Positions 23,826-33,640 of a stretch of 64,000 nt of DNA are shown here, piece after piece; the stretch's first letter is position 1; the number at the start of each line of letters is the position of its first letter. The translations under genes and the position numbers were made by a program. The stretch is from Candidatus Puniceispirillum marinum IMCC1322. GTDB lineage: Bacteria; Pseudomonadota; Alphaproteobacteria; Puniceispirillales; Puniceispirillaceae. The stretch is taken from NCBI RefSeq assembly GCF_000024465.1, contig NC_014010.1, forward strand, positions 2,331,001 to 2,395,000, written 5' to 3'. The notes below the pieces were generated by a model that was given only the letters and a program-made list of their open reading frames with translations, had not been told where the DNA came from and searched no databases.

Positions 23826-23987
23826 GAAAGCCTCATAAAGAAATGAACAACATTCTGCCTTGCCACGGGAAGTGAAGAAAGCAAAATCTTTGCTATTGGC
23901 ACCTAACGCTTTATGGCATGCTCTATCACGATCAGATAAAGATATGGCATGACGTTTGTGCCACGCCAGATTTATGGAGATACGGCC

Positions 23988-24422
23988 ATGCCGACAGCCT
24001 TGATAGCTGAAAATATTCGCCACCTAGTGGTGCATTGTGCTGATACGCCTGATGAAGAGGCGCTGGATGCGCGTGCGATTCATGACATGCATCTTGGGTT
24101 TGGCTGGCATGGCATTGGGTATCATTGGGTGATCTGCCGCGATGGCACATTACAAAGCGGGCGCCCTGAATATTGGGTCGGGGCGCATGTCAAAGGCCAT
24201 AACGAAATCAGCCTTGGCGTATGTCTGATTGGCCGCCAGAATTTCACCGATGCACAAATGCAGACTCTCAAATCTTTGTTAACGCGCTGGCGCAAGGACT
24301 ATCCGCAAGCTGAAATTTGTGGTCATTGCGATTTTGACTATACTGACAAAACCTGTCCCAATTTTGATGTTGCTAACTGGTGCGTACAACATAATATCTC
24401 GGCAAAAGCGGAATGGATATGA
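23988..24422 (+). CDS. N-acetylmuramoyl-L-alanine amidase (AmpD/Amidase_2 family)
   Basis: A 144-residue zinc amidase that cleaves the bond between muramic acid and L-alanine in peptidoglycan fragments. Visible: VVHCADTP (first zinc His), IGYHWVICRDGTL, GAHVKGHNEISLGVCLIG, and a C-terminal HCDFDYTDKTCPNFD, the place of the second zinc His and the Asp/Cys ligand. There is no signal peptide, so it is probably a cytoplasmic recycling enzyme. GGAG at 23976-23979 supports ATG 23988. The 3' end overlaps the NlpC/P60 gene by 10 bp. Confidence 0.85.
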   Translation: MPTALIAENIRHLVVHCADTPDEEALDARAIHDMHLGFGWHGIGYHWVICRDGTLQSGRPEYWVGAHVKGHNEISLGVCLIGRQNFTDAQMQTLKSLLTRWRKDYPQAEICGHCDFDYTDKTCPNFDVANWCVQHNISAKAEWI

Positions 24423-25219
24423 CCGCCAGCGACACATCAGACATCCTTCCTACCGAAATGCAGGTCAGTTTGTCCTATGTTGGTTTATATGATGCGCCGC
24501 GCGATGATGCGGGATTGGATACGCAATGTCTGTTTGGCGAAGGCTTTATCGTAACGGGTGAAGATGGTGATTTTTATCATGGCACCCTATCGACTGATGG
24601 TTATCAGGGCTATGTGCCAAAGTCGGGTCTGATGCCATTCATGGCAGTGCCAACACATCGGGTGATTGTGCCGCGGTCGCTTGTGACCCGAACTGCCGAT
24701 ATCAAAAGCGGCACGCAGTTTGGCCTATCACTTGGAGCACAGGTGACGGTGCCTGATAGCGATAAGTCATCAGATGTTCACAATGTGCAAATTCAGACGC
24801 CGTATGGCGTTGGCTATTTGCCCTGGCGGCATCTGGTGCCATGCGATCATGTGGCACCTGACTGGGTGGCTATAGCCGAATCATTGACAGGGGCGCCCTA
24901 TGGCTGGGGTGGCCGTGATAGTGGCGGGTTGGATTGCTCGGCACTGGTACAGCTAGCTTTGCAGGCAGGCGGTGTTTCAGCCCCCCGTGATAGTGGCCCG
25001 CAGGCCGCCGCGCTGGGTGATTTGCTGGCTGATGACGCCCCGCTTATGCGGGGTGATCTGATATTCTGGAAAGGCCATGTCGGTATCATGCTAGACGCGA
25101 ACATCCTGCTTCACGCCAATGCGTATCATATGCAGGTGGCCTCGGAAAATCTATATGATGCCCTGCCGCGTATCACGCGTGAAGCTGGCGATATAACAGC
25201 CCGCCGTCGCATGCGCTAA
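24413..25219 (+). CDS. NlpC/P60 (C40) peptidase with N-terminal SH3-like domain
   Basis: A 268-residue cysteine peptidase. The first ~130 residues form SH3-like repeats, and the C-terminal half is a C40 domain: YGWGGRDSGGLDCSALVQLAL (catalytic Cys), DLIFWKGHVGIML (His) and LLHANAY (third residue). Enzymes of this layout cut gamma-D-glutamyl-diamino acid bonds in murein peptides. There is no signal peptide, and it overlaps the amidase gene by 10 bp, so the two likely act in turn on recycled muropeptides in the cytoplasm. Confidence 0.87.
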   Translation: MDMTASDTSDILPTEMQVSLSYVGLYDAPRDDAGLDTQCLFGEGFIVTGEDGDFYHGTLSTDGYQGYVPKSGLMPFMAVPTHRVIVPRSLVTRTADIKSGTQFGLSLGAQVTVPDSDKSSDVHNVQIQTPYGVGYLPWRHLVPCDHVAPDWVAIAESLTGAPYGWGGRDSGGLDCSALVQLALQAGGVSAPRDSGPQAAALGDLLADDAPLMRGDLIFWKGHVGIMLDANILLHANAYHMQVASENLYDALPRITREAGDITARRRMR

Positions 25220-25244
25220 ACTCTATGCCACTTTAATAATGAAA

Positions 25245-25263
25245 AGTGATGTGTATCATCACT
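25245..25263. promoter_or_regulatory. Inverted repeat upstream of the GntP-like permease
   Basis: Perfect 7-bp arms AGTGATG and CATCACT with a 5-nt spacer, 26 bp after the peptidase stop and 122 bp before the permease ATG. No T-run follows on the + strand, so an operator is more likely than a terminator. Confidence 0.4.
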
Positions 25264-25385
25264 AAAATTCATTAGCTACATCCCGTCTGGTTAATGATTT
25301 GTTTACCAAACTCCTCGTAAATTCATATGTCTGTCTGTCCAATCGGCAAATCAGGCATAGTGCGTGGAGGGGGTATATAGCGCAG

Positions 25386-26570
25386 ATGGCACAATCATCT
25401 TTAAGAAAACATAATAATTGGCGCATATATTTGCCTGATTTTCCACTTGTGATTTGGATGCTGTTTATCACCATTCTGATTGGTATTCTTTTAGGGCTGT
25501 CATCACCCGAGATTATCAGAAAATTTAATCAGGGCTGGGGTAGTGCTGTAGGTGAATTTGCGCTCATCCTAATGCCATCATTCACCTTGGCGGCGGTTAT
25601 TGAAAAACTCCATATTAAGGGATCAAAACCCATTACAGTGAGTCTATCGCCAGTTCTTGGTGCCGCAATGGTTTGCCCTGACACAGCCTATGCCTCGCTG
25701 GCACCGATTGTGAAGCAAGCGCGTTTATCCATCGCTTTTGGTGCGTATTCTGGGTTTAAGCTGTTATTCCCTGCTGGCCCTTTGATTGTTGCCACCAGCC
25801 TTGGGGTTCAGAGCAATCAGATACTATTTTATTGTGCCGTGATCTTTTTGCCTGTTTGGGTGACAGGCTTGTTGTGGGCGCGGATTTTTGAACAAAGAAT
25901 GGATGTGACCACGCCTATATCTGAAAAAGCCATAACCGATCATCTGTTCGTTAAATTGGCTCCCTTTATATGTCTTATTACGCTAATTGCATTGGGTATA
26001 TTAATAGATTTCAGCTTCAATATTTGGCTGGCATTGGCAACAAATCCTAAAGGTGCACTTTTTATATCTGCGGCGTTGGGGTTGGCTATGGTTAACCGGA
26101 CAGATCGCCGTGCTTGTATCGAAACAGGCATCCGCCGTACTGGCTATCTACTTGTTGTTATCGGTATGGCAAGTGCGTTCAGTCTGTTTTTGACTGAAGC
26201 CGTGCCAATACAACAGCTTTTTGTATCAGCCAATGGGATGCTTGCCCTGTTAGGCTTGTTTATGATTTCGGCATTTGTAAAACTGTTGCAGGGGTCTAGC
26301 ATGGCCACCTTTGCAACAGTCGGCCCAATCGCCGCGCCAATTGTTGTGGCTTCAGGAATAGCACCTGAACTTGCCGTTATTGCGATTTGCCTTGGCTCAT
26401 TCATTGCCATATTGCCGAATGACAGTTTCTATTGGCTTATTCGCGATAATAAACAGCTAACCCAACGCTATAGCGATCTTAATATCATGGCGATCCTTGG
26501 GGGTGGCGCTACTATGCAGGCGGTTGCTGGGTTTCTAGTTTTATGGGGACTATACCTTGTAGGTGCATAG
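25386..26570 (+). CDS. GntP-family-like permease
   Basis: A 394-residue polytopic membrane protein with about 11-12 helices. GSAVGEFALILMPSF, LLQGSSMATFATVGPIAAP and a late LGSFIAILPNDSFYWLIRDN resemble the gluconate permease (GntP) family, which includes carriers for sugar acids, hydroxy acids and D-serine. GGAGGGGG at 25366-25373 lies 12 bases before ATG 25386; longer starts back to 25299 would add a polar tail. Placed inside the cell-wall recycling island, it may carry a lactyl- or sugar-acid product, but this is only inference. Confidence 0.68.
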   Translation: MAQSSLRKHNNWRIYLPDFPLVIWMLFITILIGILLGLSSPEIIRKFNQGWGSAVGEFALILMPSFTLAAVIEKLHIKGSKPITVSLSPVLGAAMVCPDTAYASLAPIVKQARLSIAFGAYSGFKLLFPAGPLIVATSLGVQSNQILFYCAVIFLPVWVTGLLWARIFEQRMDVTTPISEKAITDHLFVKLAPFICLITLIALGILIDFSFNIWLALATNPKGALFISAALGLAMVNRTDRRACIETGIRRTGYLLVVIGMASAFSLFLTEAVPIQQLFVSANGMLALLGLFMISAFVKLLQGSSMATFATVGPIAAPIVVASGIAPELAVIAICLGSFIAILPNDSFYWLIRDNKQLTQRYSDLNIMAILGGGATMQAVAGFLVLWGLYLVGA

Positions 26571-26610
26571 TGCATTCAGCATTTTCCATCCATCCCCGTC
26601 CAACAGAAAC

Positions 26611-27975
26611 CTACCCCTTGCCAAGCGATATGCGGTTGCGCAGATACCACAGCAACAGCAATGACGGAATGACCATCAACGCCGTAATCACAAAGAACGT
26701 GCCCCAATCTCCATTCAGCCAATCAACCATTGCCCCTGACGATGACGCCAATGTTGTCCGTCCCATTGTGCCGATCGAGGCCAGCAAGGCATATTGCGTA
26801 GCTGTGTAGGTGCGATCAACCAGCAGCGAAATAAAGGCGACAAAGGCAACCGTCGCAAAGGCAGCGGCGATATCATCAAGCAGAACGGCAACGGCGAATA
26901 ACAGCTCGGATTTACCACTCCATGCCAGAATTGAAAACATGACATTTGTTGCGGCCATGGCGATACCGGCGATGAATAAAGCGCGGATCGAACCTGACCG
27001 GATCGCAAAATAGCCGCCCAGTAAGGTAAAGCTGATCGTGGTTATCCAGCCAAGCCCTTTTGAATAGATGGCGATCTGGGATTTTGAAAAGCCCATTTCT
27101 TTATAGAAAACCAGTGACATTTTGCCCATGAAGGCTTCACCGATTTTGAACAGGAAGATAAAGCTCAGAATACCAATGCCGATTGCTAGGCCATTCTTTT
27201 TGAAAAAGCTGGTCAGTGGCCCCAGAATGGCACTTGAGAAAAAGGCAATAATTTGCGAAACCGGATTATTGCCACCAACATGGCTGGCGATAGCGGCTTG
27301 GGCTTCGGCCTGGGCTTTGATCCGTTCGTCGGAACTGGCTTCGGGAATAAACAGCAATGCGATATTGGCAAGCAGGATGATGGCCAGAAGCACAAGGAAC
27401 GTTAGCTGCCAGTAATTGACATGCCCCAGCGCCTCAAAATAATCCGCTGTGAACAGCGTAATCATACCGCCTATTTTATAGCCTGACCACCAGCCAGCCA
27501 CCGCCACCGCCGCGCCCGCCGCCATGGCACCACGTTCATCATGGCCGATCTGCTCGATCCGCAAGGCGTCGATGGTGATATCTTGCGATGCTGACGAAAT
27601 CGCAATCAGCAAGCCAAAGGCCATAACCCACCATATATCGGCCGCCGGACTCAGATTGCTCCATGCCAGCACCGAAACAAAAATCACCGCTTGTAGCGAA
27701 ATGATCCAGGCTTTGCGATGACCAATGCGTTCCGTCAGAACGGGGATACGAATGCGGTCAATCAATGGCGCCCACAGAAAGTTAATCGCATAGACGCTGA
27801 AAATCAGACCTGCCCAGCCGATTGCCGAGCGGCTCAACCCATCTTCCTTCAGCCAAAGTGATAGCGATGATCCGATCAGAACCCAGGGAAAGCCGCTTAT
27901 CGCGCCAAGCAGAAGAATGCGAAGCATTCGCTTATCAAAATATATGCTCAAGGTTGCCTTTTCCGGACTACTCAT
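26611..27975 (-). CDS. ampG: AmpG-type muropeptide permease (MFS)
   Basis: A 454-residue major facilitator protein with about 12-14 helices. The N-terminal ILLLGAISGFPWVLIGSSLSLWLKEDG and FLWAPLIDRIRIP, then SASQDITIDALRIE, are hallmarks of AmpG, which imports GlcNAc-1,6-anhydro-MurNAc and its peptides into the cytoplasm. The GGGGAAG before ATG 27975 sets the start. It is divergent from an L,D-transpeptidase-like gene, with a perfect palindrome in the spacer, and lies amid murQ, anmK and an amidase. Confidence 0.88.
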   Translation of the reverse strand: MSSPEKATLSIYFDKRMLRILLLGAISGFPWVLIGSSLSLWLKEDGLSRSAIGWAGLIFSVYAINFLWAPLIDRIRIPVLTERIGHRKAWIISLQAVIFVSVLAWSNLSPAADIWWVMAFGLLIAISSASQDITIDALRIEQIGHDERGAMAAGAAVAVAGWWSGYKIGGMITLFTADYFEALGHVNYWQLTFLVLLAIILLANIALLFIPEASSDERIKAQAEAQAAIASHVGGNNPVSQIIAFFSSAILGPLTSFFKKNGLAIGIGILSFIFLFKIGEAFMGKMSLVFYKEMGFSKSQIAIYSKGLGWITTISFTLLGGYFAIRSGSIRALFIAGIAMAATNVMFSILAWSGKSELLFAVAVLLDDIAAAFATVAFVAFISLLVDRTYTATQYALLASIGTMGRTTLASSSGAMVDWLNGDWGTFFVITALMVIPSLLLLWYLRNRISLGKG

Positions 27976-28099
27976 AATAACTTCCCCCATTTTGGCATTA
28001 TTCAGGCTCCGAATGCCACTTCATTCATTTTTTCTAAAATAACCCTACAACCAAAAACGGCATCGCAAAAGGTTTATTCAAATTGCTGTTTCTGGGGTA

Positions 28100-28120
28100 A
28101 TTTGACAGCTACTGTCAAAT
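28100..28120. promoter_or_regulatory. 21-bp perfect palindrome between ampG and the transpeptidase gene
   Basis: Arms ATTTGACAG and CTGTCAAAT, 9 bp each, flank the spacer CTA. It lies 34 bp before the + strand gene and 125 bp before ampG, and each arm includes a TTGACA-like -35 hexamer. A dimeric repressor bound here could control both directions. Confidence 0.65.
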
Positions 28121-28153
28121 ATCTATCGGGTAGTGGCATAGGAGACAAACGTC

Positions 28154-28681
28154 ATGCGTAGCTGGTGCGTAAAACAAGTCAAAACAGACACCTATCAACT
28201 TGATGCAGGGGCATTGCAGTTTGATTGTATCATTGGCAAGGCTGGCGTTATTGATGCGTCGGCCAAGCGCGAAGGCGATATGGCAACACCGCGATGTGAA
28301 ATGCCTATCCGTGCGGTTTATTATCGCGCTGATCGGGTGCAAATACCGGCTTTGCCGTTTCCGACATTTCCGATCACCGCGTCATGTGGCTGGTGCGATG
28401 CGCCTGAACATCCTGCATATAACCGGCATGTGGATTTGGCTCTGCATGCGCCTTTCGACGCCAGCCATGAGGTGATGTGGCGCGATGATACGGCCTATGA
28501 CATTGTTGTCGAACTTGGCTTTAACGATGCGCCGGTGATAGCTGGACGTGGCAGTGCTATTTTCATCCATTGTATCGCGCCCGGCAAAACCCATACGGCG
28601 GGCTGTGTGGCACTGGTGCATGATGATCTGCTGGCCTTGCTGGCGCTGGCATCGCCGGATCAGCATGTAATTGTTACGTGA
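28154..28681 (+). CDS. L,D-transpeptidase-like (YkuD domain) protein
   Basis: A 175-residue protein with a C-terminal YkuD-type active site: GRGSAIFIHCI followed by TAGCVALVHDDLLALLAL, where His and Cys of the HxnGC motif would form the thiol catalyst that crosslinks or trims peptidoglycan peptides. The central YNRHVDLALHA region also fits. No signal peptide is evident, which is unusual for an enzyme working in the periplasm; a cytoplasmic L,D-carboxypeptidase role in recycling is possible. GGAG precedes the ATG. Confidence 0.75.
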   Translation: MRSWCVKQVKTDTYQLDAGALQFDCIIGKAGVIDASAKREGDMATPRCEMPIRAVYYRADRVQIPALPFPTFPITASCGWCDAPEHPAYNRHVDLALHAPFDASHEVMWRDDTAYDIVVELGFNDAPVIAGRGSAIFIHCIAPGKTHTAGCVALVHDDLLALLALASPDQHVIVT

Positions 28682-28691
28682 GTTTTGATAC

Positions 28692-29522
28692 CTAGCTTTT
28701 TGACGCCCTCCCAAGTGCCGCATCAATCAGTTTTTTACGCGCCCGTAATTTGGCGTTGGTCGGCACCATTTTTACCATCAGGCCATCTTTGACAAATCCC
28801 ATCTGCACCATAATCAGATTAGAGATCATATTGAGACAGATTTTCTGGGCAGTGCCTGCTTTCAACCTTGTCGATCCGGCAATCGCTTCGCCACCAGTTG
28901 CCAGCAAAATGGCATATTCGGCCTCATCCAATAGTGGCGTATTCGCATTATTGGCGATCCCGATGGTTAGCGCACCGGCCTTGCGCGCCTGTTGCAGAAC
29001 ATGGCAGGTAAAGGGCGTGATCCCGCTGGCGGCCAGGCCGATCACAACATCATCCCTGCCGATGGCGGATTTTTCCACCTCCTTGGTGGCGGCTATGCTG
29101 TCATCTTCGGCATTCTCGACAGCGCGTAACAGCGCGTTATGGCCGCCCGCAATCACAAAGCCAACACGTTCACGCGGCCAGTTAAAGGTTGGAAATAATT
29201 CGGCACCATCCTGAACGCCAATGCGGGCGGATGTGCCAGCCCCCGTATAAATCAAACGCCCCATGTCACTGCCCGAAAGCCGTTTATAGGCGGCCATGCC
29301 TGCCGTCTCGATCTGATCGAGCGCGCTGGTCAGGGCGGTTATCGCGCCTGCCTGATTATCCAGCATCATTGCCAATGCCGCATGTGGGCTCAACTTGTCG
29401 ATTGGAACCGGACTTGCGGCCATAATTTCGGTTGCCAGCGTCTTTGACGACGCATCCGTGACGGTTTTATCAGCATCGTCTTTTTGGGCATCGTCTTTTT
29501 GGGGTGTATTTGTTTTCTTCAT
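28692..29522 (-). CDS. murQ: N-acetylmuramic acid 6-phosphate etherase
   Basis: A SIS-domain lyase of about 276 residues that splits MurNAc-6-phosphate into GlcNAc-6-phosphate and D-lactate. Visible: LIYTGAGTSARIGVQDGAELFPTF (catalytic Glu region), GRDDVVIGLAASGITPF, NNANTPL and AGSTRLKAGTAQKICLNMIS. ATG 29522 is chosen because the longer frame upstream runs through an 18-bp tandem repeat and gives an artefactual LLIILS repeat. It is divergent from anmK, whose product it consumes. Confidence 0.93.
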   Translation of the reverse strand: MKKTNTPQKDDAQKDDADKTVTDASSKTLATEIMAASPVPIDKLSPHAALAMMLDNQAGAITALTSALDQIETAGMAAYKRLSGSDMGRLIYTGAGTSARIGVQDGAELFPTFNWPRERVGFVIAGGHNALLRAVENAEDDSIAATKEVEKSAIGRDDVVIGLAASGITPFTCHVLQQARKAGALTIGIANNANTPLLDEAEYAILLATGGEAIAGSTRLKAGTAQKICLNMISNLIMVQMGFVKDGLMVKMVPTNAKLRARKKLIDAALGRASKS

Positions 29523-29553
29523 ACTGCGATCATAGGCAGGATAAAGGCGCCTG

Positions 29554-29625
29554 AGAAGAGATAAGATAATCAGAAGAGATAAGATAATCAGAAGAGATAA
29601 GATAATCAGAAGAGATAAGATAACG
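29554..29625. repeat. Four tandem 18-bp repeats between murQ and anmK
   Basis: Unit AGAAGAGATAAGATAATC occurs three times exactly; a fourth copy ends in ACG instead of ATC. The array fills most of the spacer between the divergent starts and is purine-rich on the + strand. It could vary spacing by slippage or bind a regulator. Confidence 0.9.
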
Positions 29626-29655
29626 AAACAAAAGCTGAGCAAGCATGCCGACACC

Positions 29656-30831
29656 ATGGATCAAGATAGAAACACCATACATCCTGTTATAGGTTTGATG
29701 TCGGGTACCAGTGCCGACGGGATAGACGCGGCCATTCTGCATACTGATGGCAGCCGGTTTCACCGTACCGATTTTGCCGACAGCTTTGCCTATGATCCGG
29801 CCTTGCGCACGCGTATTTTTGACGCGGTGCATGATCCTGTGGCTTTTATGGCGGATGCCGCGGCATATACGGCGTTATCACATGCAATAACCGATGCGCA
29901 TAGTGCGGCGGTCATGGCGCTCGTAGAACAGCTACCAGATGATGCTGATATGCCGCGTTTGATCGGGTTTCATGGCCAGACAATTTTTCACGAACCCGAT
30001 GCCAACACGTCCTCACCGCTTGGGCGATGCACGATCCAGCTTGGGTCTGGCCAACAGCTTGCAGATGCCACAGGTATGAATGTTGTTTATGACGTTCGGC
30101 AGGCCGATATGGCGGCAGGCGGACAAGGCGCACCGCTAGCCCCGGTTTTTCATAGCGCGCTTATCGCCGCGATCGATGCCCCCTGTCCGGCAGTTATCAT
30201 CAATATCGGTGGTGTGGCCAATCTAACCTATGTTGGCAACGCAAAACAGCCTGATATCATTGGTTTTGATACGGGGCCAGGCAACGGGTTGATGGATGAT
30301 TATATGCAGGCCCATTTCAACCGGCCTTTTGACGATGGTGGTATGGTTGCGGCACAAGGGCATAGTGACAAAGGTTTTGTCGCACGGGTGATGCAACATG
30401 ACTTTTTTGCCAGAAGCTGGCCAAAATCACTCGATCGACAGGCATTTGTCCATATTGTGGGTGATGCAGGTTTGCATGATCTGTCCCCGCATGACGCGAT
30501 GGCCAGCCTTGCCGCGCTGACGGTGGCGGGCATCACCCATGCGGTCACTTCACTGCCCGAAGATGTGCGGCAGATATATATCGCAGGTGGCGGACGGCGT
30601 AACCAGACACTCATGCAACAGCTTCGCGCAGTCTTTGGCGATCGTCTGGCTATTGATGATCGCGCGCCATTTGACGCCGATATGCTAGAGGCCGAATTGA
30701 TGGCCTATCTGGCCGCGCGGCATCGTGCTGGCTTGCCCACATCCTTTCCGGCTACCACCGGATGCGCCATGCCTGTCTGTGGTGGCCGCCTTGCCCAGCC
30801 TTCAGATCAGCCGTTAAATAAGCGCGTCTGA
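29656..30831 (+). CDS. anmK: Anhydro-N-acetylmuramic acid kinase
   Basis: A 391-residue cytoplasmic kinase that opens and phosphorylates 1,6-anhydro-MurNAc to MurNAc-6-phosphate. Family blocks: IGLMSGTSADGIDAAIL (ATP-binding), GFHGQTIFH, NIGGVANLTYV, IIGFDTGPGNGLMDD with the catalytic Asp, and IYIAGGGRRNQTLMQQL. The C-terminus overlaps the convergent PIG-L gene by 18 bp. Its product is the substrate of the divergent murQ. Confidence 0.95.
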   Translation: MDQDRNTIHPVIGLMSGTSADGIDAAILHTDGSRFHRTDFADSFAYDPALRTRIFDAVHDPVAFMADAAAYTALSHAITDAHSAAVMALVEQLPDDADMPRLIGFHGQTIFHEPDANTSSPLGRCTIQLGSGQQLADATGMNVVYDVRQADMAAGGQGAPLAPVFHSALIAAIDAPCPAVIINIGGVANLTYVGNAKQPDIIGFDTGPGNGLMDDYMQAHFNRPFDDGGMVAAQGHSDKGFVARVMQHDFFARSWPKSLDRQAFVHIVGDAGLHDLSPHDAMASLAALTVAGITHAVTSLPEDVRQIYIAGGGRRNQTLMQQLRAVFGDRLAIDDRAPFDADMLEAELMAYLAARHRAGLPTSFPATTGCAMPVCGGRLAQPSDQPLNKRV

Positions 30832-31503
30832 TCCGGTCACATAGAAAGGCCGATAGGCCGGCGGTGCAGGCACCATCTCGCGGATATCGGTAAAGGGAAA
30901 GCGCGCTGCCATCCGATAGGCCTCGGCATAATGGCCATCAGGAGCGTTACATTGTGCGGCACGATATCGGTTCATCAGGGCGCTGGCCGCGGCGAATCTT
31001 TCGGGTTCCTGACTGTCATGTGCCATGATGGCGGCTTGTTTGGCGGCAAAAAACGGTGTGATATCGACATAAAAATCGGGTGTAAAGCCTATCCCCATTA
31101 ATGTTTCGGCAAACAGGATCGGACAGGTAAAACCAACCACATCGGTAACAAAGCGCGATAAAGCCCGATGATCGGGATGATAATCATCTGGCGCATGGGT
31201 GACAACAAGATCGGGCTTGCAGTCCGATATGAACCGGGCAATCACCTGCCGCGCATCAGCCGCTTCGGCAAGGCCGCCATCGGGCAGGCCAAGCAAGCTT
31301 GGCGTGGCAAGCGCGGTCAGGCCATTAACGGTTTCTTTTGCCCGTGTTGCGGCCAGTTCGGCACCCGGATTATCGCCACCCGCCGCCCCATCGGTGGCAA
31401 CGCCGATGCTGATATCATCGCCGCGTGCCTTACAGGCGGCCAGAAATCCATAGAAGAAAATTTCCACATCATCGGGATGTGCCCCTATGCCAACAATTTT
31501 CAT
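30814..31503 (-). CDS. PIG-L/LmbE-family zinc deacetylase
   Basis: A 229-residue predicted de-N-acetylase with the N-terminal zinc motif GAHPDDVEIFFYG and the second motif THAPDDYHPDHRALS. Relatives remove acetyl groups from GlcNAc units in small molecules or glycans, including diacetylchitobiose. Its position between anmK and a GH84 hexosaminidase suggests a GlcNAc-containing substrate from cell wall or chitin; the specific one is unknown. Confidence 0.85.
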   Translation of the reverse strand: MKIVGIGAHPDDVEIFFYGFLAACKARGDDISIGVATDGAAGGDNPGAELAATRAKETVNGLTALATPSLLGLPDGGLAEAADARQVIARFISDCKPDLVVTHAPDDYHPDHRALSRFVTDVVGFTCPILFAETLMGIGFTPDFYVDITPFFAAKQAAIMAHDSQEPERFAAASALMNRYRAAQCNAPDGHYAEAYRMAARFPFTDIREMVPAPPAYRPFYVTGSDALI

Positions 31504-31586
31504 CCTATTGACTCCTTAGATGTTTCCATGACTAGCCTTTTGCCCCAAAGATCGGCTTTAATGGCATATCATAACAATGCGACAGT

Positions 31587-32819
31587 ATGCGTCAATTCAT
31601 GCAGAGTGCTAGCAAAATGCAAAATAACCGGTTGAAACCTGCAGATCACCTACCATCAGCGCTGACAGGCTATATTGAGGGGTTTTATGGGCATCTGCTG
31701 AATTGGGATGATCGCTTGCGGCTTCTGGATAGGCTGGCATCATTGTCGATGAATGCCTATCTCTATGCGCCAAAGGATGATCCCTGCCATCGTTTCCACT
31801 GGCGGGTCGAATATGATTCTGACTGGCGCGCTGGCTTTGCGCATTTCTGTGATGCTGCCAGCATGCGCAATATTTCCGTTATTGCCGGTATTGCGCCGGG
31901 TCTTGATTTTAACTTTGCCGATCTGGGTAACGCTGATGATTCTCAGAATAATGATTTCATGATTTTATGTGCCAAGGCCGCCCAGCTTCGCGCTGATGGC
32001 GCTAATCATATCGCCTTATTGATGGATGACATTGCCGCTGATTTTGCCCAGCGTGCTGGTGACTATGAAAGCGAAGGTACGGCGCATGCCGCGCTTGCCA
32101 ATCGTCTGGCCGCTTATCTTGATTGTCCAGTTATTCTGGTGCCGCGCATTTATGCAGATGAACTGGTTACCGATGCCGATGCGCAATCTGCAACCTATCT
32201 TGATGATCTGGCATCCAGCCTCGATCCGGCATCTGCCATCATGCATTGTGGCAGTCATATTGTTGCGCCTGTCATCGGCAGGGATGATATTTTGGCGCTT
32301 TCGCATGCGCTCAGCCACCGTGTTATTATTTGGGACAATATCTATGCACAGGATTATTGTCCGCGCCGCCTATTTACAGGCCCCTATCGCGGGCGTGACG
32401 GCGATGGTGATATAATGCTCAACCCAACCGGCATGATCGAAACGGATCTTCTTCTGCTGGATATTATGGCACGTAAACAGAGCTGGCCAGATATCATTAA
32501 GGCGGCCAGCATACCCGATGAATTTGTAACATTAGCGGCTTATTTTGACGCCCCATACGGATTTGACCCCGTTTTTGATATGCCCAAAGACGCCGATGCG
32601 CTGGCGGCGCTGGAATTGCTGTTATGGTCATGGAAGTCACCCTTACAGCGTGAATGGTATCCATTTTTGATGGGGTTGAAGCATGATATTCTGATGCAGA
32701 ATGGGGCATTGCCGGCATTGCGCATTACCAAGACCCAGACACCAGCCCTAGCATCGCATATACTATCCTCGCATAATCTGGCATCGCAGAATGGCGCCGA
32801 CGCAGATAATGAAAGCTAG
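31587..32819 (+). CDS. GH84-type beta-N-acetylglucosaminidase (NAGidase domain)
   Basis: A 410-residue TIM-barrel hydrolase of the hyaluronidase-like/O-GlcNAcase family. The N-terminal LTGYIEGFYGHLLNWDDRL and YLYAPKDDPCHRFHWR are the family signature. The catalytic Asp pair is in IALLMDDIAADF near residue 150, and WDNIYAQDYCPRRLFTGPYRG is a substrate-binding block. It lacks a signal peptide. Bacterial relatives remove terminal GlcNAc; in this cytoplasmic recycling setting it may do the job of NagZ on GlcNAc-anhydroMurNAc. That role is inferred; protein O-GlcNAc or chitin fragments are alternatives. Confidence 0.85.
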   Translation: MRQFMQSASKMQNNRLKPADHLPSALTGYIEGFYGHLLNWDDRLRLLDRLASLSMNAYLYAPKDDPCHRFHWRVEYDSDWRAGFAHFCDAASMRNISVIAGIAPGLDFNFADLGNADDSQNNDFMILCAKAAQLRADGANHIALLMDDIAADFAQRAGDYESEGTAHAALANRLAAYLDCPVILVPRIYADELVTDADAQSATYLDDLASSLDPASAIMHCGSHIVAPVIGRDDILALSHALSHRVIIWDNIYAQDYCPRRLFTGPYRGRDGDGDIMLNPTGMIETDLLLLDIMARKQSWPDIIKAASIPDEFVTLAAYFDAPYGFDPVFDMPKDADALAALELLLWSWKSPLQREWYPFLMGLKHDILMQNGALPALRITKTQTPALASHILSSHNLASQNGADADNES

Positions 32820-33640
32820 GCTAAAACCGAATATAGCATCCGTGCCGCGCTGATAATCAGAAACAGTGCAAAGGCGCGTTTCAGCCGCACGGGATCAAGC
32901 GCATGCGCAAGGCGGCTTCCCATTGGTGCGGTAAAAATACTGACACTGAACAGCAATATGGCAATCGGCAAATTAATGAAACCAAACGAATAGGGCAGGC
33001 GCATAGCCACATCCCAGCCTGACCATATAAACCCTAATGCCCCCGGTAGCGCAATCATGAAGCCAAAAGCTGCCGATGTCCCGATGGCGCGATGCACCGG
33101 CACACCAAGCGCGGTCATCACCGGAATCGACATGGTGCCTCCACCTATCCCCATCAAGGCTGAAAAGAAACCGATAAAGCTGGATATCAATTTTTCAAGC
33201 GGGCGCGCCTTTGGCAAGATTGTGCCCATTTTGGGTGTGTGCGGCATCATCATATTCATCGCCACAAGAATTGCCAGACAGCCAAAAATCAGCGTTAATG
33301 TCGCGCTTTCGATATACTGCGATAGAAACCCGCCGCTACCGGCACCCAGAACAATAAAAGGTGACCAGCGCCGCAAAATACCCAGATCGATACTATCACG
33401 TCGATGATGCGCCAATGCTGATGAAATCGAAGTGGGAATGATCGTGGCAAGCGAGGTGCCAACCGCCGCATGCATGATGATATCCGCTGGCACATTCATG
33501 ACATCGTAAATCAGAAACAGAACCGGTACCAATATGATGCCGCCGCCAATACCAAGCATTCCTGCCAGAATCCCCGCAATCGCCCCCGTAGCCATAAGCC
33601 CAAGCACCATCATCAATAGCATTTCAGGTGAATAGGACAC
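32816..33640 (-). CDS. TauE/SafE-family sulfite or sulfonate exporter
   Basis: A 274-residue inner-membrane protein with about eight helices and two repeats of the glycine-rich TauE motif, AGILAGMLGIGGGIILVPVL near the N-terminus and SALMGIGGGTMSIPVM near residue 165. Members are proposed to export sulfite, sulfoacetate or other anions. It overlaps the GH84 gene convergently by 4 bp and is monocistronic. A second TauE gene is near the right end of the window. Confidence 0.87.
   Translation of the reverse strand: MSYSPEMLLMMVLGLMATGAIAGILAGMLGIGGGIILVPVLFLIYDVMNVPADIIMHAAVGTSLATIIPTSISSALAHHRRDSIDLGILRRWSPFIVLGAGSGGFLSQYIESATLTLIFGCLAILVAMNMMMPHTPKMGTILPKARPLEKLISSFIGFFSALMGIGGGTMSIPVMTALGVPVHRAIGTSAAFGFMIALPGALGFIWSGWDVAMRLPYSFGFINLPIAILLFSVSIFTAPMGSRLAHALDPVRLKRAFALFLIISAARMLYSVLA

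Follow-up and report, generated by a model that had tools for sequence, protein, structure and literature searches.

NagZ, a glycoside hydrolase of family GH3 with a covalent mechanism, is regarded as the standard enzyme for the step of peptidoglycan recycling at which N-acetylglucosamine (GlcNAc) is removed. Here we describe a cluster of recycling genes in Candidatus Puniceispirillum marinum IMCC1322 (Alphaproteobacteria, order Puniceispirillales) that includes a leaderless protein of family GH84, the O-GlcNAcase family. The cluster lies in what we call the window, the whole stretch of 64,000 nucleotides analysed (NC_014010.1, positions 2,331,001 to 2,395,000, forward strand; coordinates below are those of the window), and the source genome (codename G000) is one contig of 2,753,527 bases. 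NagZ, whose place in recycling is given in the part of PMC13046382 drawn on here, shares with our proposal for the GH84 protein its reaction, its compartment and its position between AmpG/AmpD and AnmK. It differs in family and mechanism, the window enzyme belonging to GH84, for which the corresponding portion of PMC4683255 describes substrate-assisted catalysis by a double Asp.

The cluster is very probably a cytoplasmic peptidoglycan-recycling island in which the GH84 protein acts at the step of GH3 NagZ, and this protein is likely a non-orthologous replacement of NagZ that has been kept in most of the order. Such a replacement had been suggested by an earlier inspection of the DNA by itself (hereafter the sequence-only reading). 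It is supported by the absence of GH3 from the genome, the co-occurrence of GH84 with AnmK, the conservation of the catalytic residues and the lack of a leader, and we infer it strongly. The other genes of the island, among them those for AmpG, a YkuD protein, MurQ, AnmK and a PIG-L deacetylase, are listed in Table 1.

Distribution of GH3 and GH20

As a check on its proposal, the sequence-only reading had named a whole-genome search for a GH3 NagZ. A search for GH3 (PF00933) gave no match in the complete source genome, the same search being positive in 10 of 14 control genomes. We extended the comparison to 136 genomes of the order, 43 of which we term good (completeness of 90% or more, contamination of 5% or less), and to an even draw of 385 genomes from the class. 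GH3 is present in only two of the order genomes and in none of the good ones; in the class sample it is found in 320 genomes, and AnmK in 301. Contamination is the probable source of the two matches within the order, that of G097 being on a 3.8 kb contig of a genome with 7% contamination and that of G120 on a contig of 11.9 kb. GH20, another hexosaminidase family, was positive in four of the 14 controls and gave no match in any of the 136 order genomes, source genome included, and is thereby ruled out as a substitute for NagZ.

Eight genomes of the class sample that are at least 90% complete carry AnmK and lack both GH3 and GH84 (G159, G179, G187, G216, G222, G295, G334 and G362); these possibly contain further NagZ substitutes.

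Co-occurrence and linkage of GH84 and AnmK

The source genome has a single GH84 gene. Across the order, GH84 and AnmK are each present in 85 of the 136 genomes and in 31 of the 43 good ones. Their co-occurrence, which the sequence-only reading had put forward for checking, is near-complete: 80 genomes have both, five only GH84, five only AnmK and 46 neither (Fisher p 9e-25, a value that ignores kinship). In four of the GH84-only genomes the contig breaks off where the partner is expected; the remaining one, G074, has a completeness of 57%. As for the AnmK-only genomes, in G076 and G081 the contig stops in AnmK or just past PIG-L, and in the contaminated G097 AnmK is fragmentary. The listed genomes of two genera of one family (g7 and g8), well-completed ones included, are without GH84 and AnmK, save for this fragment in G097, and the recycling pathway seems to have been lost from both genera.

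GH84 is also physically linked to other genes of the pathway. We read 82 loci, corresponding to the 85 GH84-bearing order genomes minus the source window, G120 and G121, and in 74 of them AnmK, MurQ, AmpG or YkuD is found within 5 kb of GH84. In seven of the remaining eight loci the contig runs out next to GH84 or PIG-L; the eighth (G008) is a piece of 3.7 kb. This linkage recurs in 14 genera, the source genus among them, which makes it more than chance. Gene order varies by family, with many genomes of family f3 showing MurQ-AnmK-PIG-L-GH84-YkuD-AmpG. In genus g9 and in G073, AnmK is a few genes off or on another contig and GH84 still stands beside YkuD and AmpG; since GH84 has been kept with YkuD and AmpG where AnmK has moved, it is not only following AnmK.

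Sequence and fold of the GH84 protein

The sole domain match of the GH84 protein is to PF07555, and the hallmarks of the family are all present, namely the NAGidase TIM barrel, the Asp-Asp pair and the K/Y/N/D/N residues. We aligned 29 GH84 proteins from 14 genera of the order (that of G087 truncated at its start) with four distant GH84 proteins. Residues K63, D65, D147, D148, Y189, W249, D250, N251, D256 and N279 are invariant in all 29 order proteins. Beyond the Asp-Asp pair and the Asp that binds O4/O6, we take the conserved K, Y, N, D and N to serve in the binding of GlcNAc. D147 and D148 correspond to the catalytic pair of human O-GlcNAcase (OGA) and of the Thermobaculum terrenum enzyme (TtOGA), as described in the relevant part of PMC4683255.

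The sequence-only reading had called the protein signal-less, and a simple hydropathy scan of residues 1-55 shows no leader-like N-terminus in any of the 29 order proteins (that of G087 being truncated there, and that of G110 having an unsure start). The enzyme is predicted to be cytoplasmic. Two features set the order's proteins apart. Position 187, two residues ahead of the active-site Tyr, is Arg in all 29; the four distant proteins carry Thr or Ser there, and the Oceanicola granulosus enzyme (OgOGA) carries Thr. As a guess, R187 may read the acid groups of anhydro-N-acetylmuramic acid (anhMurNAc), be it the lactyl or a peptide carboxylate. In addition, the order's proteins retain a C-terminal WxWK...REWY motif, the one departure being at R355, and the four distant proteins lack it.

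An AlphaFold model has a mean confidence score (pLDDT) of 69.4; the barrel is mostly good (residues 21-250), and, as the underlying alignment was made up of distant sequences alone, the model is poor from about residue 254 onwards, the part in which the helical bundle of an OGA-type GH84 would follow the barrel. The fold is that of GH84, the model superimposing on human OGA (5m7r) with a Z score of 28.1 over 266 residues at 2.8 Å, and the closest solved relatives are OgOGA (2xsa) and human OGA, with 23-29% identity in fold alignments.

Proposed pathway

The genes of the island suggest a pathway whose substrates and order of steps we infer. AmpG would import GlcNAc-anhMurNAc-peptides, from which the AmpD-like amidase, the leaderless YkuD protein and the NlpC/P60 peptidase would remove and trim the peptide. 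GH84 would then release GlcNAc by substrate-assisted retaining hydrolysis involving D147 and D148, and AnmK would convert the remaining anhydro sugar to N-acetylmuramic acid 6-phosphate (MurNAc-6-P). From this, MurQ would produce GlcNAc-6-P and D-lactate, and PIG-L would deacetylate GlcNAc-6-P (or GlcNAc) in the place of NagA.

GH84 proteins outside the order

We examined the best 80 named loci of 589 confirmed for a distant GH84 subfamily, some of these stretches being short contigs. AnmK or MurQ homologues are found in only four of the 80, and with 76 loci showing no recycling gene, we reject a general assignment of distant GH84 proteins to recycling. One of the four is in Niveispirillum lacus (G404; locus L106, also L137), whose GH84 protein is 26% identical to that of the window. 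AnmK, an AmpG-like protein, GntR and MurQ lie to one side of it; its neighbours on its own strand are a BadF-type kinase and, on the other flank, a D-lactate dehydrogenase. D-lactate is the product of MurQ. Related sets occur in three of the other 79 loci, from Sphingomonas sp. GM_Shp_1, Sphingopyxis sp. L1A2A and a Sphingomonas metagenome-assembled genome. Outside the order, varied combinations are met of genes for GH84, AnmK, MurQ, D-lactate dehydrogenase and BadF-type kinase (L106, L201, L214 and L216).

GH3 is retained in N. lacus, and within its family (f55) GH84 is present in only two of 82 genomes. In the second of these (G582), the 3.9 kb covered (L136) contain no recycling gene. Besides N. 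lacus, five class genomes outside the order have GH84; no recycling neighbour of it was found in four of them (G139, G257, G455 and G472), the neighbourhood in the fifth, G360, having been left out.

Alternative explanations

Several observations weigh against GH84 as the replacement of NagZ. In two AnmK-only genomes of the order, G001 and G052, the lack of GH84 is not explained by a contig end adjoining the island, and joint inheritance or loss of GH84 and AnmK as neighbouring genes could have yielded much of their co-occurrence. The distant loci without a recycling gene (76 of the best 80, some of them short contigs) point the same way, as does the fact that GH3 is kept in all six GH84-bearing class genomes outside the order. 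Moreover, 22 of the 301 AnmK-bearing genomes in the class sample are without GH3, five from the order and 17 from outside it, and GH84 is present in none of the 17; AnmK without NagZ does not, therefore, require GH84, and a glycosidase other than GH3 and GH20, the families searched, may act at the NagZ step. One could accordingly suppose that an unrecognised enzyme cuts GlcNAc-anhMurNAc and that GH84 only helps, for instance on GlcNAc-MurNAc without the anhydro end, the 17 genomes indicating that other solutions may exist. For the island this is highly improbable, given that the ten proteins scanned in or beside it show no other glycosidase domain and that GH84 tracks AnmK.

A different role for GH84 would be that of an intracellular O-GlcNAcase acting on proteins, with its recycling neighbours there by chance. 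This would fit its nearest solved relatives, OgOGA and human OGA, which are called O-GlcNAcases, and the presence of GT41 proteins resembling O-GlcNAc transferase (OGT) in 32 of the 136 order genomes, both of which tell against a function in recycling. However, no match to OGT/GT41 (PF13844) was found in the source genome, which weakens the O-GlcNAcase reading, GT41 is present in six of the 43 good genomes as against 31 for GH84, and the linkage to recycling genes persists through 14 genera; such a role is very unlikely. Alternatively, GH84 may cut other GlcNAc disaccharides, derived from imported chitobiose or from glycoconjugates, making the cluster one for general amino-sugar salvage. GH84 enzymes accept varied aglycones, and the best solved relatives of the island's PIG-L protein include diacetylchitobiose deacetylases. 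This explanation is nevertheless quite unlikely, in that the transporter is AmpG, the neighbouring amidase, YkuD, AnmK and MurQ are the usual handlers of anhydro-muropeptides, and GH20 is absent from the order. We thus favour GH84 as the enzyme of the NagZ step in muropeptide recycling.

PIG-L and NagA

The GH84 protein is probably accompanied by a second replacement, in which PIG-L deacetylates GlcNAc-6-P or GlcNAc and stands in for NagA; the sequence-only reading had listed the PIG-L gene and given it no interpretation. No match to NagA (TIGR00221) was found in the source genome. Of 81 order genomes, 12 score above the cut-off of this profile, and a further 45 give only matches that fall short of it; these are nearly all short and weak, and we take them for other amidohydrolases. 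Three of the 12 (G002, G004 and G005) have neither GH84 nor AnmK and, offering no locus, were left out. In the 59 genomes with both a locus read and a NagA result, 44 have only the island PIG-L, nine have only NagA over cut-off, none has both and six have neither, and the source window adds one further PIG-L-only case. Of the six with neither, three are cut by contig ends (G034, G128 and G134) and three are not (G124, G132 and G135). Where NagA is present, its gene adjoins anmK or murQ in five of the nine genomes (G073, G110, G114, G117 and G119), and likewise in G118, which is outside the NagA sample.

A quickly built tree of 72 genomes, every row of which was flagged by the letter-composition check, requires two changes in the NagA state and four in that of PIG-L. 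There are two independent pairs (median p 0.5), so that the complementarity of PIG-L and NagA rests on few events, and the pattern is suggestive and not significant. A diacetylchitobiose deacetylase (8bgn) is the second of eight solved matches to PIG-L, and the protein misses the cut-offs for the bacillithiol deacetylases BshB1 (78.9 against 182.5 bits) and BshB2 (38.7 against 195.25).

YkuD and MurQ

All 53 YkuD homologues of the order longer than 150 residues have the motif [ST]xGC. The window protein was judged leaderless by eye, and no solved relative of it was found by sequence. By analogy with ElsL, it is a probable cytoplasmic L,D-carboxypeptidase.

MurQ proteins of the order are about 55 residues short at the C-terminus, the distance from GAGTS to the stop being about 175-190 residues in most as against 238 in Niveispirillum. 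In the window protein, the NCBIfam MurQ profile aligned only to position 241 of 300, and the score is below the TIGR00274 cut-off (200.7 against 302). The true start of MurQ is probably internal to the call in Table 1. Between the starts of murQ and anmK (29530-29657) lies a short tandem repeat, which reads SDYLIS in one frame and IILSLL in another.

Gene content of the island

With AmpG and AnmK scoring over their cut-offs and MurQ over that of its subfamily, the gene set for recycling by the MurQ route is present (Table 1). All eight genes named by the sequence-only reading were recovered at or near the positions it gave, from the amidase to GH84. It had also placed GH84 and then PIG-L at the end of the island; both are there, with PIG-L between AnmK and GH84 and not after the latter.

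Table 1. Genes of the recycling island, in window coordinates
Feature	Coordinates	Strand	Evidence
Amidase_2, AmpD-like N-acetylmuramoyl-L-alanine amidase	23949-24422	+	PF01510 E 9e-16
NlpC/P60 peptidase with SH3_16	24413-25219	+	domain match and solved-relative matches
GntP/ArsQ-like permease	25299-26570	+	ArsQ 416.9 bits, cut-off 480
AmpG muropeptide permease	26611-27990	-	TIGR00901 365.7 bits, cut-off 350
YkuD protein, leaderless, Cys motif	28154-28681	+	PF03734
MurQ, MurNAc-6-P etherase	28692-29657	-	subfamily cut-off passed, 273.4 against 168
AnmK, anhydro-MurNAc kinase	29656-30831	+	398 bits, cut-off 352
PIG-L/LmbE (CE14) deacetylase	30814-31503	-	PF02585 87.4 bits, gathering cut-off 28.2
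GH84 beta-N-acetylglucosaminidase, leaderless	31587-32819	+	PF07555 E 4e-44

The amidase scores low against the AmpD equivalog (28 bits, cut-off 143). The NlpC/P60 protein, which has dipeptidyl-peptidase VI structures (3pvq and 3npf) among its 14 solved matches, is the probable cutter of the released peptide. The GntP permease, which comes near the arsinothricin exporter ArsQ in score but stays below its cut-off, sits within the cluster and was missing from the earlier gene list; no homologue of it was detected in 28 GH84-bearing loci of the order, and it is probably an insertion outside the conserved island. From AmpG to TauE (26611-33640) the strand alternates gene by gene, and several gene ends overlap. 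With strands alternating in this way, the genes are a linked island rather than a single operon, and their linkage is conserved all the same.

Taken together, these observations can be drawn into a wider picture, to which we give slightly better than an even chance. Recycling in the order would have been re-tooled, with NagZ replaced by a GH84 subfamily marked by R187, the GlcNAc-6-P deacetylase NagA replaced by PIG-L, L,D-carboxypeptidase activity supplied by a leaderless YkuD protein and MurQ working without its C-terminal part. In Niveispirillum and some sphingomonads, GH84 would have been recruited to this task a second time, there from the distant subfamily, and part of the leaderless bacterial GH84 proteins would be muropeptide enzymes and not O-GlcNAcases.

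Comparison with known systems

A whole order of marine bacteria appears to perform the NagZ step with the O-GlcNAcase family. If true, this would provide a function for leaderless bacterial GH84 proteins that are labelled O-GlcNAcase or hyaluronidase in public records. NagZ is a drug target, and inhibitor work, as presented in the portion of PMC3920638 used here, aims at selectivity over human O-GlcNAcase; with the NagZ step in the hands of the O-GlcNAcase family, OGA inhibitors, and not NagZ inhibitors, should block this step of recycling. In the open-access literature, as covered by titles and the beginnings of abstracts (subscription papers and bioRxiv preprints falling outside), we found no paper on GH84 in recycling and, by title, none on PIG-L in NagA's role; nor does 'GH84' occur in the main text of PMC13046382.

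The recycling system of Caulobacter crescentus, as set out in the main text of that paper, offers an alphaproteobacterial comparison. It has AmpG, an amidase and AnmK, as here, and, unlike the source genome, it has GH3 NagZ and NagA and is without MurQ, using a MurU shunt instead. ElsL, which the part of PMC8649774 drawn on describes as a cytoplasmic YkuD L,D-carboxypeptidase, resembles the window's YkuD protein as a leaderless YkuD in a recycling context. With OgOGA and human O-GlcNAcase the window protein has in common the GH84 core, the catalytic Asp-Asp pair and the fold; it is separated from them by low identity, R187, the C-terminal WxWK...REWY motif, its genomic context and the absence of an OGT from the source genome. 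TtOGA, finally, is a leaderless bacterial GH84 protein like that of the window. According to the same portion of PMC4683255, TtOGA has a GT41 as its partner and is assigned a role in protein O-GlcNAc, whereas the GH84 protein of the window stands among the genes of peptidoglycan recycling.

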